Source: a virus
DNA: 20,838 bases
Strand: one strand, 5' to 3'
IMG/VR virus record: IMGVR_UViG_3300008107_004101
Span: 1-20,838 of that record
The notes below the pieces were generated by a model that was given only the letters and a program-made list of their open reading frames with translations, had not been told where the DNA came from and ran no database searches. Made by a program: the position numbers and the translations under genes. This document shows positions 2,052 through 8,929 of the stretch, one piece after another; position 1 is the first letter of the stretch, and every line of letters begins with the position of its first letter.

Positions 2052-2390
2052 TTAAGATTTATCAACGGAATACAGTATATCATGTTCATACAGAAACATG
2101 AGGCAACAAAGAGCATGTGCTAAGTGGTGTCTACCTGATTCTGGGTCATCTTGTTCTCCTTCTTTCCATGCCCATAGATGCCTTTGCATGGCATCAAAAT
2201 AACGGCGTTTGGAATCAGGAACATTTTTCCAGTTATCAGGTTCATACTTTTCCGCACCAAAGGTCAATACATCAACAGTAGCCTTCAATGCAAGTGGTGG
2301 TAGTAAACCATATCGCAATTTACCACCATCGAACTTACGACCTCCGGTTGTAGCAGTTTGACTTGCTTTAACTAGGTCGTTTTCGTTCAT
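2052..2390 (-). CDS. dATP/dGTP diphosphohydrolase-like protein (DUF5664 type)
   Basis: The 112-residue protein contains KFDGGKLRYGLLPPLAL (about 19-35), a GAEKYEPDNWKNV box (45-57), an RHLWAWKEGEQDDPESGRHH box (about 70-89) and LAHALCCLMFLYEHD at the C-terminus. This pattern belongs to the phage family annotated as the N-terminal domain of dATP/dGTP diphosphohydrolase, related in style to all-alpha NTP pyrophosphatases. Members are thought to hydrolyse dNTPs to dNMPs. In phages they adjust the nucleotide pool or supply precursors for modified DNA. The ATG overlaps the stop of the upstream glycosyltransferase (ATGA), and gp45 follows 14 nt later. Family assignment is by motif memory; substrate is unverified. 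Confidence 0.8.
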   Translation of the reverse strand: MNENDLVKASQTATTGGRKFDGGKLRYGLLPPLALKATVDVLTFGAEKYEPDNWKNVPDSKRRYFDAMQRHLWAWKEGEQDDPESGRHHLAHALCCLMFLYEHDILYSVDKS

Positions 2391-3202
2391 AGCTTGCCTG
2401 TGTATTGTGCAACTGCCGGCATATTACCAGTAAATGCGTAAGTACCGATATGTTGTGTTTTCATCCATGGACACAAATAGATTTGACCACCCATTTTGCG
2501 CCACATTTGACAGAACATATAATCTTCACTCAGATATCTGTCAGAACCACCTCCAACGATAGATTCTTTAGTGTCGATTACTGTATCAAAGTATGCATGA
2601 ATGTATCTTGTACCATCGAAATTGGCCTGTCCAACATGGTCTGGTTTGTATCGAATCATTGGATATTGTTTTTCCATTTTTTCAAATACTTCCCGTTTAA
2701 CCATCATAAAACCTGTGCCGATTTCCATGACTTCAAGTGGGTCTGTAACAGTAAATTGTTTTGTGCCTTTTACGACATTGAAAACATATTCGCCAACTAA
2801 TTGTTCAAGTTCTCTTGGCTCCATATTTGGTTGAGAACGGGCAGCTTGTGCAACATTACCCCAATTGATTGATTTTTTAGGATAAGGACCACCAATCACA
2901 TCTTTGTCCAATGCCATTAAAGCAAGAACATCTTGTGGATTGTAGTGAATGTCCGAATCGATAAAAAGTAAGTGTGTGTGGTCTGAACGAAGAAACTCAT
3001 CGACTAGGTAGTTTCTTGCTCGTGTAATAAGTGATTCATTGAACAGGAATGAAAACTTGGTTTCGATTCCATACTTGTTCATTGTTGTCTGTAAGTCGAG
3101 GCTTGATTTGATATACAAACCATGTGCCATGCCACCATACATCGGTGTAGCAATAAACAGCTTATTTTTTCTTAATTTTTCTAATTCAACTTTGATTTCC
3201 AT
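2387..3202 (-). CDS. GT-A fold glycosyltransferase (family 2-like)
   Basis: The 271-residue protein opens with LFIATPMYGGMAHGLY (about 15-30), typical of nucleotide-sugar binding in GT-A enzymes. It carries FLFNESLITRARNYLVDEFL, then the metal-binding segment HLLFIDSDIHYNPQD with a D-x-D (SDI/DSD) centre, GGPYPKK, and a later IGTGFMMVKREVFE followed by SEDYMFCQMWRKMGG, which resembles the acceptor/catalytic E-D of family 2 enzymes. Similar proteins are common in T4-like aquatic phages. The acceptor (phage DNA base, capsid protein or host glycan) cannot be told from sequence. Its ATG has a GGAG site and lies just after a strong terminator, with no obvious promoter of its own. That implies some readthrough. 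Confidence 0.85.
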   Translation of the reverse strand: MEIKVELEKLRKNKLFIATPMYGGMAHGLYIKSSLDLQTTMNKYGIETKFSFLFNESLITRARNYLVDEFLRSDHTHLLFIDSDIHYNPQDVLALMALDKDVIGGPYPKKSINWGNVAQAARSQPNMEPRELEQLVGEYVFNVVKGTKQFTVTDPLEVMEIGTGFMMVKREVFEKMEKQYPMIRYKPDHVGQANFDGTRYIHAYFDTVIDTKESIVGGGSDRYLSEDYMFCQMWRKMGGQIYLCPWMKTQHIGTYAFTGNMPAVAQYTGKL

Positions 3203-3218
3203 GACAACTCCATAAACG

Positions 3219-3255
3219 AAAAAGAGGAAGTGGTACCTATATGTATCACTTCCTC
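3219..3255 (-). terminator. Strong intrinsic terminator after the winged-helix gene
   Basis: On the minus strand a GAGGAAGTG...CACTTCCTC stem (9 bp, extended by TAC/GTA beyond one A-C mismatch) is followed directly by TTTTT. It lies 20 nt after the stop of the 90-aa gene and 17 nt before the glycosyltransferase ATG. Confidence 0.9.
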
Positions 3256-3274: not shown

Positions 3275-3547
3275 TTAGGCAAAAGCACGCTCACCTTGTG
3301 AACGAATTGCGGCAATACCTGCAGCGACCATGCGCTTAGTAGGAGTGCCAAGGCGATAGAAAGAAACTTTCTCGCCGTTTGCGTTGATGCGGCTATTCAA
3401 GTAAATAGCGTGACCTTCATTACGCAACTCATTAATGGTTGCAGAAGGATTAGCAACACCAAAAACAGACTGCATCTTCTGAGCGGTCAAGGTGTTGTAT
3501 TCACTATCTTTAGAAAGATAAGCAAGGATTTTAGATTTGGTAGACAT
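3275..3547 (-). CDS. Small winged-helix / helix-turn-helix protein
   Basis: The 90-residue protein starts MSTKSKILAYLSKDSEY. It shows a helix (about 3-12), a helix-turn-helix-like segment TLTAQKMQSVFGVANPSATINELRNEGH (about 18-45) and a beta wing AIYLNSRINANGEKVSFYRLG (46-66), then a basic tail. This is the layout of a winged-helix DNA-binding domain, seen also in small proteins of aquatic T4-like phages. An ATG five codons upstream (3562) is in frame, but it overlaps GGAG, the ribosome-binding site 9 nt before the chosen ATG at 3547, so the shorter form is preferred. The gene is a single-gene unit with its own promoter, structured leader and terminator. This suggests an abundant, possibly self-regulated protein; that role is inference. 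Confidence 0.85.
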   Translation of the reverse strand: MSTKSKILAYLSKDSEYNTLTAQKMQSVFGVANPSATINELRNEGHAIYLNSRINANGEKVSFYRLGTPTKRMVAAGIAAIRSQGERAFA

Positions 3548-3567
3548 TACAAAATACTCCATAAAAT

Positions 3568-3613
3568 GGTCTCACGATTAAAAAATATTTGAGAGGAGAC
3601 CGTTCTCTCAAAT
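3568..3613 (-). promoter_or_regulatory. Predicted H-type pseudoknot in the mRNA leader
   Basis: On the minus strand ATTTGAGAG (3613-3605) pairs perfectly with CTCTCAAAT (3595-3587), a 9-bp stem. Its 9-nt loop is AAC plus GGTCTC, and GGTCTC (3601-3596) is perfectly complementary to GAGACC (3573-3568) downstream. Stem 1 is 9 bp, loop 1 is 3 nt, stem 2 is 6 bp, there is no nucleotide between the stems, and loop 3 is 13 nt and AU-rich. These dimensions fit a classical H-type pseudoknot. The predicted transcript starts at about 3614, so the fold would sit at the very 5' end, ending 7 nt before the GGAG ribosome-binding site. Alternatively the stem plus the following TTTTTT could act as an attenuator. 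Confidence 0.65.
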
Positions 3614-3620
3614 TAGAATC

Positions 3621-3649
3621 ATTGTATCAGATTGAAACGAGGTTGTCAA
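3621..3649 (-). promoter_or_regulatory. Sigma70-type promoter of the winged-helix gene
   Basis: TTGACA (3649-3644), a 17-bp spacer and TACAAT (3626-3621) read on the minus strand: a perfect -35 and a 5/6 -10. The predicted start near 3614 coincides with the first base of the leader stem. Confidence 0.85.
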
Positions 3650-3669: not shown

Positions 3670-3699
3670 AAAAAACTCCCACAGTCTTACCTGTGGGAG
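3670..3699 (-). terminator. Intrinsic terminator of the AAA+ gene
   Basis: CTCCCACAG, a 6-nt loop GTAAGA and CTGTGGGAG form a perfect 9-bp stem followed by TTTTTTAT on the minus strand. It sits 17 nt after the stop of the CobS-like gene and 20 nt before the -35 of the next unit. Confidence 0.95.
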
Positions 3700-3715: not shown

Positions 3716-4915
3716 TTAGAAAGGAATTTCGTCTTTGTTTTCAGTTTCAGGTACTTCAGGTTCAATTACAGGTGCGAGTAATTGTTCGGCAGAAGCACCT
3801 GCATCAACTTTGGTATACAAATCAATAAATGATGCCTTGGTGTCATCATCAAAACGATTCAAACACAAAGTAATTGCCTTCATTTTATCACCAAAGATGC
3901 CGTATGTTTCAACAATATGCACAAGGCGGCGAGTAGAAATCACTTCATCACAACCGCCATCATTGAATGTTTTACGAATTACATCAGCCCATGTAACAAG
4001 TTTCTCGGCGAAATCATCATCAGCACGACCAACAGAGGTCAATTCTTTTTCGATAATCTTCCGCTCAGTCTTAACAGGAGGGAATTCTTGTTCCATTGTG
4101 GTGCGGAATCTTTCGAGGAATGCTTCGTTAAGCACATTCGTAAACATGTAACGACCATCATCAGAACCTTTACCTTTTGTATTCGCAGTAGCAAACACAG
4201 TAAAACCAGGTGCAGGTGCAATTACTTCACCTTTCTTTTTGAGCATGAAAGGTTTACCTTCAAGAACCCGTTGCAAAGAGGAAAGGTTTTGAGCACCATA
4301 ATCAATCTCATCGATACACAAAACGGCACCTTGTCGTGCAGCAGTGGTCACAGGACCATCACGCCATTCCATATTACCATCGATAAGAACATAGTTACCA
4401 AGTAGGTCACTCTCATCGGTTTCAGGTGTCATTGATACGCAAACGAATTTTCGTTTTGCCTTGGCACATGCCTGTTCAATAGACATTGTTTTACCATTAC
4501 CAGAATGACCAGAAACGAAAACAGGAAAGAAACGCATCGATTGAACGATTGAAAGAACATCATCAAAGTTACCAAATGGTACATAATTTTTGTAAACATT
4601 GGGAACTAGGTTAGTATTGTCCAAATCAGTTTGAACATTTTGAATTTTATGATTTGATTTTTCAACTGGTTTGGTCATAGGAACTACCTGTGCTTGTAAT
4701 GCAATGGTTTGAACGGGTTGTGCAATAGAGGCAGAACCAGGTACTTTATACACACCACGCTTCACACGGTTTGCATCATCATTAGTAAACCAATAAGGAT
4801 GAGCAATATTTGATTTACTGCAAATTTCTTTAATCTCATCGGTTGTTACAGTAGGTTTACCGAGAGCAATAACTGCATTGATAAACTTTTCACGAATTTC
4901 GGCACGCTTAGTCAT
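3716..4915 (-). CDS. MoxR/CobS-like AAA+ ATPase
   Basis: The 399-residue protein has an N-terminal winged-helix-like domain (about 1-58), a low-complexity linker (about 60-100) and an AAA+ core: Walker A GHSGNGKT (136-143), Walker B VLCIDEID (198-205), sensor-1 FATANTKG (241-248) and LERFR (267-271) as candidate arginine finger. It ends in an acidic tail (ETENKDEIPF). This is the family called CobS in cyanophages, after the ATPase subunit of aerobic cobaltochelatase. The MoxR clade also includes chaperone-like ATPases that pair with VWA proteins, and here the VWA partner lies directly upstream. No other cobalamin gene is visible in the window, so a remodelling role for the pair is as likely as cobalt insertion. 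The gene has its own consensus promoter and terminator. Confidence 0.88.
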   Translation of the reverse strand: MTKRAEIREKFINAVIALGKPTVTTDEIKEICSKSNIAHPYWFTNDDANRVKRGVYKVPGSASIAQPVQTIALQAQVVPMTKPVEKSNHKIQNVQTDLDNTNLVPNVYKNYVPFGNFDDVLSIVQSMRFFPVFVSGHSGNGKTMSIEQACAKAKRKFVCVSMTPETDESDLLGNYVLIDGNMEWRDGPVTTAARQGAVLCIDEIDYGAQNLSSLQRVLEGKPFMLKKKGEVIAPAPGFTVFATANTKGKGSDDGRYMFTNVLNEAFLERFRTTMEQEFPPVKTERKIIEKELTSVGRADDDFAEKLVTWADVIRKTFNDGGCDEVISTRRLVHIVETYGIFGDKMKAITLCLNRFDDDTKASFIDLYTKVDAGASAEQLLAPVIEPEVPETENKDEIPF

Positions 4916-4948: not shown

Positions 4949-4977
4949 ATTATAACATGGCTGAATTGAACTGTCAA
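4949..4977 (-). promoter_or_regulatory. Perfect sigma70-type promoter of the AAA+ gene
   Basis: TTGACA (4977-4972), a 17-bp spacer and TATAAT (4954-4949) on the minus strand. It lies within the shared 35-bp element and the inverted repeat described separately. An AAGGAG site follows before the ATG. Confidence 0.9.
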
Positions 4978-7464: not shown

Positions 7465-7493
7465 ATTATATCATAGGTATTCCGAACTGTCAA
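7465..7493 (-). promoter_or_regulatory. Perfect sigma70-type promoter of the zincin-VWA gene
   Basis: TTGACA (7493-7488), a 17-bp spacer and TATAAT (7470-7465) on the minus strand. The expected start near 7458 leaves a leader of about 22 nt carrying AAAGGA before the ATG at 7436. Confidence 0.92.
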
Positions 7494-7518
7494 CCAGCTG
7501 TGTTGTATAAAAACAACA
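7484..7518 (-). repeat. 35-bp promoter-upstream element, copy 1
   Basis: On the minus strand it reads TGTTGTTTTTATACAACA then CAGCTGGTTGACAGTTC. TGTTGT and ACAACA form a 6-bp stem around a T-rich 6-nt loop, upstream of the -35. No T tract follows the stem, so it is not a standard terminator. The AT-rich stretch may serve as an UP element or a protein site. Copy 2 is at 4968-5002. Confidence 0.8.
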
Positions 7519-7545
7519 GTCGGAAAGTCAGTCGGAACAAGTATT

Positions 7546-7608
7546 TGGAGCGGTTCATAGGAGTTAAACCTATCTGCCTACGGGGGTAGGGTGTCTCGGA
7601 CTCACCGC
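7546..7608 (-). ncRNA. tRNA-like small RNA ending in CCA
   Basis: On the minus strand GCGGT (7608-7604) pairs with ACCGC (7554-7550). The flanking GA/GA could form tandem G-A pairs, making a 7-step acceptor-like stem. The 3' strand continues T-CCA. Inside are a weak GTC-CGA-GAC hairpin, a CCTAC-CCCC-GTAGG hairpin with a 4-nt loop, and ATAGG-TTTAACT-CCTAT, a 5-bp stem with a 7-nt loop close to the tRNA T-arm consensus TTCRANY. The RNA is only about 63 nt and has no 7-nt anticodon loop, so it is not a normal tRNA. A promoter with a start predicted at about 7610 lies exactly upstream. A degenerate tRNA, a tRNA mimic or a leader element are all possible. Confidence 0.5.
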
Positions 7609-7617
7609 ATTAAGGAC

Positions 7618-7646
7618 ATCTTACACTATTACTTATGCTTTGTCAA
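7618..7646 (-). promoter_or_regulatory. Sigma70-type promoter of the tRNA-like RNA
   Basis: TTGACA (7646-7641), a 17-bp spacer and TAAGAT (7623-7618) on the minus strand: a perfect -35 and a 4/6 -10. It lies 5 nt beyond the DUF4338 stop codon and would start transcription at about 7611-7608, at the 5' end of the tRNA-like fold. Confidence 0.7.
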
Positions 7647-7651
7647 GTGTT

Positions 7652-8929
7652 TTATCGACCTACTTGAGGCAAATATTTCGCTTTTGCCTGTTCCCAAGTT
7701 AGGTATATAAGGTCATCATAGAACAAAGATTCGGTAGATACATTATTCTTTTTCGCAAGTTGTTTGATACGAGGTTTGGCATGTTTCTGTTTCCAAATAT
7801 TCACCAAATGTTCAACACTTGTATCAAATGATTTTGTCAAGTCTTTTACTTCACATTCTTTACGGAGAAAATCACAAGACTTATCGTAAAGTGGTGTGTA
7901 GTAAATGCCACGGGCATGTTCACTACGAATTAATTCTTTAGGTATTTCTAATTGTGAATATGCAAAATTCAATGAACGATTCTTGTGGTCTCTTTTATGA
8001 GGTTGACCACTAGGTTTTTTCGCCACATACCACTCAAAGTATTTTCTTGTGTGATTCTTCTTCAACCATTCTCTGATTAGATAACGGGTGTCTTTCAATG
8101 GTTCAAATGATACAGAACCTGAGGTAAATCCCATAGGTTGCCAATAATCAAGGTTGTCATATTGTGACAAACCACCCGCCTTAGTTTTACCATAAAGTGA
8201 AGTGGTCGTTACTGAAACGAGTTTATCACCATACAGTTTTTCCCACAACTCTTGCACAGGGTCAGATAAACACAATAATGCAAGTAACTTACCACCCACA
8301 TAATTAAAACCAAGTGGTTGCAATGGCACAATTGTAGAACCGATTGCAGTATGGTTAATCATTGCACCTTGCGTTTTGATTTCTCTTGACCAGCCGATAA
8401 AGTTATCTCTTGGTGTCAAATCAAGAAAGTCGGATGAAATACAAATAACACCAAGGTACTTCTTAGTAGGTTTATCTCTCACAACAAAATTGAGATTTCT
8501 GCCAATGTTTGAATTGTTTTTCATTGTGGATGAAAATGTTCGTATTGTATTCCACAACTCAGGCAAATCTTCTTCTTTGTTTGTATATACTAATTCAGGT
8601 TCTAATTTGAGATAGTCATCAGGGTCTTTTTGTATCCAAAAGTTTGATTTGACTTCTGCAATTGCACGGCGTTGTTTCTCATCTGCAAGAACCTTTGTCT
8701 CGCCTTCCCATAAATCATTAACTGTAATTGTAGGGTATTTGTCTTGAACCTCACACCATTTTTGGAACAGAGTGTATTCACGAACATCCATTGCTGACAC
8801 ATAGGTCAACTCATTGATTGTTTGTTCACGCAACTTACCAGGGTCAACATCTGTAAATTCAATACCAGAATCAGACCACTTCTGCCATTGGGCTTCAACA
8901 TCATCTTTCGGGTCAAAACTATACGCCAT
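7652..8929 (-). CDS. DUF4338 (DruA-like) protein
   Basis: The 425-residue protein has an N-terminal region of no clear family (about 1-140). The core resembles DUF4338: KYLGVICISSDFLDLTPRDN, FIGWS, an N-H-T-A-I-G-S-T-I-V-P-L-Q stretch, VGGKLLALLCLS, WEKLYGDKLVSVTTTSLYG and YWQPMGFTSGS. This order (RDxxIGWS, N, GKxLA, W..xYG, T..xYG, W..GxT.G) is the signature of the domain found in DruA of the Druantia anti-phage system and in related orphan proteins. A basic C-terminal region follows (HKRDHKNRS, then KPRIKQLAKKNN). The biochemical activity of DUF4338 is not known to me. The ATG overlaps the upstream glycosyltransferase by 11 nt. Assignment is by motif reading only. Confidence 0.7.
   Translation of the reverse strand: MAYSFDPKDDVEAQWQKWSDSGIEFTDVDPGKLREQTINELTYVSAMDVREYTLFQKWCEVQDKYPTITVNDLWEGETKVLADEKQRRAIAEVKSNFWIQKDPDDYLKLEPELVYTNKEEDLPELWNTIRTFSSTMKNNSNIGRNLNFVVRDKPTKKYLGVICISSDFLDLTPRDNFIGWSREIKTQGAMINHTAIGSTIVPLQPLGFNYVGGKLLALLCLSDPVQELWEKLYGDKLVSVTTTSLYGKTKAGGLSQYDNLDYWQPMGFTSGSVSFEPLKDTRYLIREWLKKNHTRKYFEWYVAKKPSGQPHKRDHKNRSLNFAYSQLEIPKELIRSEHARGIYYTPLYDKSCDFLRKECEVKDLTKSFDTSVEHLVNIWKQKHAKPRIKQLAKKNNVSTESLFYDDLIYLTWEQAKAKYLPQVGR

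Follow-up and report, generated by a model that had tools for sequence, protein, structure and literature searches.

The window, that is, the whole stretch of DNA analysed here, is a 20.8-kb IMG/VR virus fragment whose genes, among them those for a clamp loader, a sliding clamp and a late sigma factor, are those of a T4-like phage. A gene for a 90-aa winged-helix protein sits among the replication genes on the minus strand, between a gene for a CobS-like AAA ATPase (3716-4915) and a glycosyltransferase-like gene (2387-3202). The features of this locus are listed below in the order of transcription.

3676-3699, minus strand: terminator-like intrinsic hairpin of the upstream CobS-like AAA ATPase gene, CTCCCACAG...CTGTGGGAG TTTTTT
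3621-3649, minus strand: sigma-70-type promoter TTGACA-17-TACAAT (-35 TTGACA at 3649-3644; -10 TACAAT at 3626-3621)
3605-3613, minus strand: 5' arm of stem 1, ATTTGAGAG, 9 bp, with the core UGAG as its slowest-changing part
3602-3604, minus strand: loop 1, AAC, 3 nt (1-5 nt in relatives)
3596-3601, minus strand: 5' arm of stem 2, GGTCTC, 6 bp
3587-3595, minus strand: 3' arm of stem 1, CTCTCAAAT, directly abutting stem 2 with no junction (L2) nucleotide
3574-3586, minus strand: loop 3, ATTTTTTAATCGT, 13 nt, fast-changing (9-19 nt in relatives)
3568-3573, minus strand: 3' arm of stem 2, GAGACC
3557-3560, minus strand: Shine-Dalgarno (SD) sequence GGAG, 7 nt past the pseudoknot
3275-3547, minus strand: 90-aa winged-helix gene with ATG at 3547 (HTH_39 / PHROG 4973)
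3224-3255, minus strand: intrinsic terminator about 20 nt 3' of the winged-helix stop codon

The promoter of the winged-helix gene, with its 17-nt spacer, matched the consensus at 11 of 12 positions, and the 7-nt rule placed the predicted start site (+1) at 3614. Strong -35 and -10 elements with a 17-nt spacer were found at this gene in nearly all relatives, and a terminator-like hairpin followed it in 80 of 82 distinct relatives. An alternative in-frame start, ATG 3562 (95 aa), overlaps the SD sequence, and ATG 3547 was the better start. As the gene has its own predicted promoter and its own terminator, it constitutes a one-gene transcription unit with a predicted mRNA of approximately 390 nt, bearing the pseudoknot at the 5' end and the terminator hairpin at the 3' end. 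The predicted promoter and terminator place the fold at the 5' end of a one-gene transcript.

The encoded protein is basic (pI about 10) and about 84-100% identical within the main clade. It matched Pfam HTH_39 at the cut-off, with 17 of 19 aligned members matching at E up to 0.1, and was assigned to PHROG 4973, a family of unknown function. An AlphaFold2 model showed a winged helix (pLDDT 79), with which Foldseek returned only generic winged-helix regulators, below significance. When the protein profile was searched against PDB sequences, the matches were all weak and unrelated.

Several other features were noted on the minus strand of the window. The genes for the CobS-like protein and a VWA/peptidase-like protein have similar promoter modules at 4949-4977 and 7465-7493 (GCTGGTTGACAGTTC..., consensus -35/-10 elements and a 17-nt spacer), which come after a GTTGTTTTT.T.CAAC hairpin and lead into short, unstructured leaders. 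In the region 7480-7650, a promoter-like TTGACA-17-TAAGAT (7646-7618) is followed by a non-coding stretch of about 110 nt with a tRNA-like outline, GCGGT...ATAGGTTTAACTCCTAT...ACCGCTCCA, and then by a terminator-like GTTGTTTTTATACAAC before the next promoter. ARAGORN found no tRNA and Rfam no credible match in this stretch, which is possibly a degenerate tRNA or a small RNA. The region 7652-8929, inside the T4-like phage gene cluster, encodes a protein of 425 aa with a match to DruA of Pfam (E 2e-19), a Druantia defence protein.

Fold and covariation of the leader

The sequence-only reading of this locus had proposed an H-type pseudoknot that begins at the first base of the mRNA and ends 7 nt before GGAG. 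Its coordinates and its stem and loop lengths (3, 0 and 13 nt) were correct, with all the elements in their assigned places: the fold covers 3613-3568 and consists of a 9-bp stem 1 (S1), a 3-nt loop 1 (L1), a 6-bp stem 2 (S2), no L2 nucleotide and a 13-nt loop 3 (L3), and 7 nt separate its end at 3568 from the GGAG at 3560-3557. The fold was likewise 5'-terminal, but by the 7-nt rule the stem begins at the predicted +2 and not exactly at +1. None of 1000 dinucleotide shuffles of the leader reached its pseudoknot score, and a scan of both strands found no other pseudoknot of that score in the window. The ordinary folding z-score was unremarkable (-0.46), because the ordinary folding program cannot form pseudoknots.

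A protein search of IMG/VR yielded at least 80 close relatives, and two further searches added more; the counts from IMG/VR viral scans are lower bounds. The clade of these close relatives of the window is called freshwater here, as a label and not as the origin of each sample. Every sufficiently long freshwater leader showed the same layout as the window. The strict pseudoknot search was passed by 93 of 97 distinct freshwater leaders among the matches listed, and the remaining four contained the pseudoknot with a bulge or mismatch. The geometry in 89 leaders was S1 of 6-10 bp (mostly 9), L1 of 1-5 nt (mostly 2-3), S2 of 6-8 bp, L2 of 0-1 nt (0 in 84 of the 89) and L3 of 9-19 nt (mostly 10-13). 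Of 93 freshwater leaders, 84 had the first base of stem 1 between the predicted +2 and +6, and the gap between the pseudoknot and GGAG was 6-14 nt in nearly all relatives.

The search for compensatory changes in homologous leaders, suggested as a check when the fold was first proposed, was performed on a MAFFT alignment of 51 distinct leaders, and both stems kept their pairing by double changes, the opposite of the refuting outcome named with the proposal, in which homologues would have kept neither pairing. Pairing was observed in 95.4% of the alignment cells, and both sides had changed in 13 of the 15 pairs, to which none of 500 shuffles came close. When the partners were slid by 1-3 columns as a control, pairing fell to 30-48%. 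On a tree of the coding sequence, approximately 36 double changes were counted in stem 2 and 16 in stem 1. Seven of the 51 leaders came from a scan with the stem-1 pattern, a possible source of bias; the result was intact without them, with 24 double changes in stem 2 and 14 in stem 1. The variants of stem 2 included GGTCTC/GAGACC, GGTCGC/GCGACC, GAATCGC/GCGATTC, GAACCAC/GTGGTTC, GGCCTC/GAGGCC, GACTGC/GCAGTC, GGTCAC/GTGACC, GATTCAC/GTGAATC and GGTTGC/GCAACC, among others. The claim of an H-type pseudoknot on a phage winged-helix mRNA was thus borne out by the covariation in the 51 leaders. These data demonstrated the fold and the selection on it, and as the fold was preserved through dozens of paired mutations, the pseudoknot must have a function, most probably in setting the amount of the small DNA- or RNA-binding protein that the mRNA encodes. 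Judged by comparative analysis, the conserved 5'-terminal H-type pseudoknot leader is real, this test being decisive for its confirmation.

Distribution of the pseudoknot and leaders of distant homologues

Eight larger phage records, 32-136 kb in length, were searched with a covariance model of the element; each gave one clear match, which adjoined its single winged-helix gene. The pattern scan of IMG/VR for the stem-1 hairpin, covering 2.9 million viral contigs, detected promoter-linked pseudoknots only before the winged-helix gene among the matches listed. The other leaders behind strong sigma-70 promoters in the window and two relatives were short and had no pseudoknot. A general leader device on many phage genes was rejected, as none emerged from the pattern scan (among the matches listed), the covariance-model searches or these other promoter leaders. 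The pseudoknot was shown to be restricted to the winged-helix gene and, in the eight larger records, to be single-copy; the leader acts in cis as an RNA element dedicated to that gene.

Rfam 15 gave no match at the gathering threshold in the window and 18 relatives, and a search with the leader at E up to 5 returned three spurious matches and nothing relevant. No plain DNA similarity to cultured phages was detected, and no description of the pseudoknot leader was found in the open-access literature. From these searches, the leader pseudoknot seems to represent a phage RNA family that is new and as yet has no name, and metagenomic phage leaders hold RNA families that are not yet in Rfam.

In marine homologues (the cultured Methylophilales phage Melnitz and IMG/VR contigs), whose protein is about 30% identical, the leader forms a simple hairpin whose start is within about 2 nt of the predicted +1, with variable sequences unrelated to the pseudoknot. 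A hairpin is likewise present in Stenotrophomonas phage DLP_6, at the predicted 5' end (+1) of the transcript. These marine and DLP_6 hairpins were individually modest, as 10 to 134 of 2000 shuffles did as well. Further relatives, L341 and L348 among them, had no 5'-terminal hairpin on the winged-helix gene, and in HTVC008M the gene follows rpsU without a 5' hairpin leader. A base-paired 5' end, as predicted from these leaders, is recurrent on the winged-helix gene, and in the freshwater clade it has become fixed as a pseudoknot.

Some further features were noted around the gene in relatives. In Pelagibacter phage HTVC008M (L203, 2634-3174), the homologue lies directly after the gene for a phage ribosomal protein S21, in the same CobS / sliding-clamp neighbourhood. 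L330, L334, L341, L345, L348 and other marine relatives have a terminator-like hairpin, AAGAGGGG...CCCCTCTTTTT, upstream of the winged-helix gene, whose loop holds the -35 TTGACA of the next promoter, so that the two elements overlap. Inverted repeats also span the -35 element at some freshwater loci, L232 and L051 for example.

Constraint on the two stems and candidate functions

The four positions of the UGAG core in the 5' arm of stem 1 had undergone 1, 0, 1 and 1 changes, and stem 1, above all this core, changed at roughly the slow pace of the first two codon positions. The number of changes per site was approximately 8 in stem 2, 10 at third codon positions and 14 in loop 3. The rate of stem 2 was thus close to the third-codon rate, but its changes were compensated; loops 1 and 3 were at or above that rate, and the nucleotides 5' of stem 1 were fast-changing. 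The compensated changes in stem 2 and the slow change of stem 1 indicated that stem 2 is preserved for its pairing, and stem 1 for its pairing and its sequence alike. The sequence constraint suggests that stem 1 is recognized in a sequence-specific manner. A G-U pair was present in stem 1 in 24 of the 51 leaders, indicating that an RNA helix and not a DNA palindrome is conserved.

We tentatively favor the reading, to which we give a little less than an even chance, that the leader is an autogenous translational operator of the winged-helix protein. The first approximately 46 nt of the transcript would fold once RNA polymerase leaves the promoter, giving a coaxially stacked H-type pseudoknot beside the ribosome-binding site without covering it. 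Winged-helix protein in excess would bind the pseudoknot, recognizing stem 1 by sequence and stem 2 by shape, and the bound protein would block 30S loading at the GGAG 7 nt downstream. The free operator would permit good translation, and the base-paired 5' end would probably also lengthen the life of the short mRNA. We infer the encoded protein as the bound factor, repression on binding and protection of the 5' end.

The strong covariation of both stems, the gene-specific and single-copy occurrence, the sequence constraint on stem 1 and the position of the fold beside the ribosome site are consistent with such an operator, as is the product, a small basic protein (pI 10) of a nucleic-acid-binding type. 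The full pseudoknot was retained instead of a plain hairpin, even where the protein has drifted to 57-69% identity (L093, L120 and L257). Precedents are provided by T4-type gene 32 (PMC3014915, PMC535899) and by rpsO/S15 (via PMC3014915). On the other hand, the pseudoknot does not cover the SD sequence, and the homologues at 28-54% identity have sequence-unrelated simple hairpins or none, so that there is no recognition element common to the whole protein family. The conservation of stem 1 could also stem from tertiary contacts within the RNA, and 5'-end protection explains the strict 5'-terminal position at least equally well.

Such protection is the core of the next explanation, a serious possibility that we put at roughly a third: the leader would be a 5'-terminal stabilizer and spacer, in which the paired terminus is hidden from RppH and RNase E and the SD sequence stays open, giving a long-lived, well-translated mRNA with no feedback by the protein. 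Secondary structure at the 5' end stabilizes mRNA, as both RppH and RNase E require a single-stranded 5' terminus (PMC3997798), and the T4 gene 32 mRNA, autoregulated via its pseudoknot, is also the most stable T4 mRNA (PMC3014915), a stability that speaks for the same role here. The location of the stem 1 start close to the predicted 5' end (+2 to +6 in 84 of the 93 leaders of the freshwater clade), the unrelated hairpins at the same place in the marine homologues and DLP_6, the free SD sequence and the short one-gene transcript with its terminator hairpin (80 of 82 relatives) agree with this explanation. A plain hairpin would suffice for it, yet the covarying second stem and the zero-length junction were kept throughout the freshwater clade, and the sequence of stem 1 was conserved beyond pairing. 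In several leaders, moreover, 3-5 nucleotides at the 5' end are predicted to be unpaired, a sufficient length for RppH-type enzymes.

It is unlikely that the pseudoknot is instead bound by a small molecule or by another factor (a host ribosomal protein, an Hfq-like protein or another phage protein), in a riboswitch-like or host-sensing role. In favor of this reading, H-type pseudoknots are used by small riboswitches. Phages of this group also carry glutamine riboswitches (PMC9004378). No conserved unpaired nucleotides that could form a ligand pocket were found, however, since loops 1 and 3 changed at or above the third-codon rate; the window and 18 relatives had no Rfam match, and there was no conserved alternative structure sequestering the SD sequence. 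A riboswitch or other known RNA family was rejected for the lack of an Rfam match and of conserved loop nucleotides. Sequestration of the SD sequence was also rejected: CTCC in the window could pair with GGAG, but relatives that have GGTCGC or GAATCGC do not keep it.

DNA is the usual ligand of winged-helix proteins, and the arms of stem 1 form an inverted repeat of conserved sequence at the start site (+2). Stem 1 might accordingly be mainly a DNA operator of a transcriptional autorepressor, with the RNA fold secondary, but we consider this very unlikely. The G-U pairs of stem 1 in 24 of 51 leaders keep the RNA pairing and break the DNA symmetry, stem 2 covaries independently of stem 1, the half-site was not enriched in the window (27 found against 26.5 expected), and a second strong element was absent in the eight larger records. 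A reading as DNA operator only was rejected on the stem-1 G-U pairs and the absence of extra genomic copies. Transcription attenuation, in which stem 1 and a U-run terminate and stem 2 competes, had been raised from the stem and TTTTTT and is hardly credible: stem 1 is followed by ATTTTTT in the window, but the U-run was not conserved, as 30 of 67 distinct elements had no T run longer than 3 within 14 nt of the end of stem 1. Few parts of the leader change as fast as loop 3, stem 1 is 5'-terminal with a base rich in A+U, and stem 2, having no bases in common with stem 1, would not act as an antiterminator.

Returning to the autogenous operator, its broader form would be a new class of phage operator in which a winged-helix protein recognizes the 5'-terminal pseudoknot of its own mRNA. 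Such a class would have no connection with the T4 gene 32 system and would be common among the T4-like phages of freshwater; in marine relatives, simple 5' hairpins would be either its source or its replacement. We regard this broader form as possible, with chances clearly below even. The element offers a way to approach what this highly conserved but uncharacterized phage protein does, and the natural alignment of compensated stems is ready for direct tests.

Comparison with known systems

The leader was compared with four kinds of characterized element. An analogy with T4 gene 32 had been drawn from the sequence at the outset; it held for the architecture, but the protein family, the sequences and the spacing between pseudoknot and SD sequence differ. 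The gene 32 leader of T4, T2 and RB69, the autogenous operator of the ssDNA-binding protein gp32, is likewise a 5'-side H-type leader pseudoknot with coaxial stems in a T4-type phage, and both leaders precede a gene for a small nucleic-acid-binding protein. The gene 32 leader belongs to gp32, whereas the freshwater element belongs to a winged-helix protein of HTH_39 / PHROG 4973. The gene 32 pseudoknot lies more than 40 nt upstream of the SD sequence, with an unstructured stretch of UUAAA repeats overlapping the ribosome-binding site; the freshwater element lacks such a stretch and has a gap of 6-14 nt. As the two have no sequence relation, the freshwater leader resembles the gene 32 leader but is neither homologous to it nor a member of its family. 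Within the same broad group of phages it adds a second candidate, unrelated to the first and backed by far denser comparative data.

The operator of rpsO (ribosomal protein S15) is similar in that its pseudoknot lies beside the ribosome-binding site and the gene encodes a small basic protein that binds nucleic acid. It is not homologous, the SD sequence of the freshwater element lies outside the fold, and ribosome trapping belongs to the rpsO side of the comparison. The 5' stabilizing stem-loops of the ompA/papA type share a paired element a few nucleotides from the 5' end (a predicted end in the freshwater element), protecting in principle from RppH and RNase E, whereas the freshwater element is a covarying pseudoknot restricted to one gene. 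The operator hairpin of T4/RB69 gene 43 resembles the putative operator described here as an autogenous phage element that precedes the gene it controls and has a partly conserved sequence, but it is a simple hairpin without a pseudoknot, and the gene encodes a DNA polymerase.
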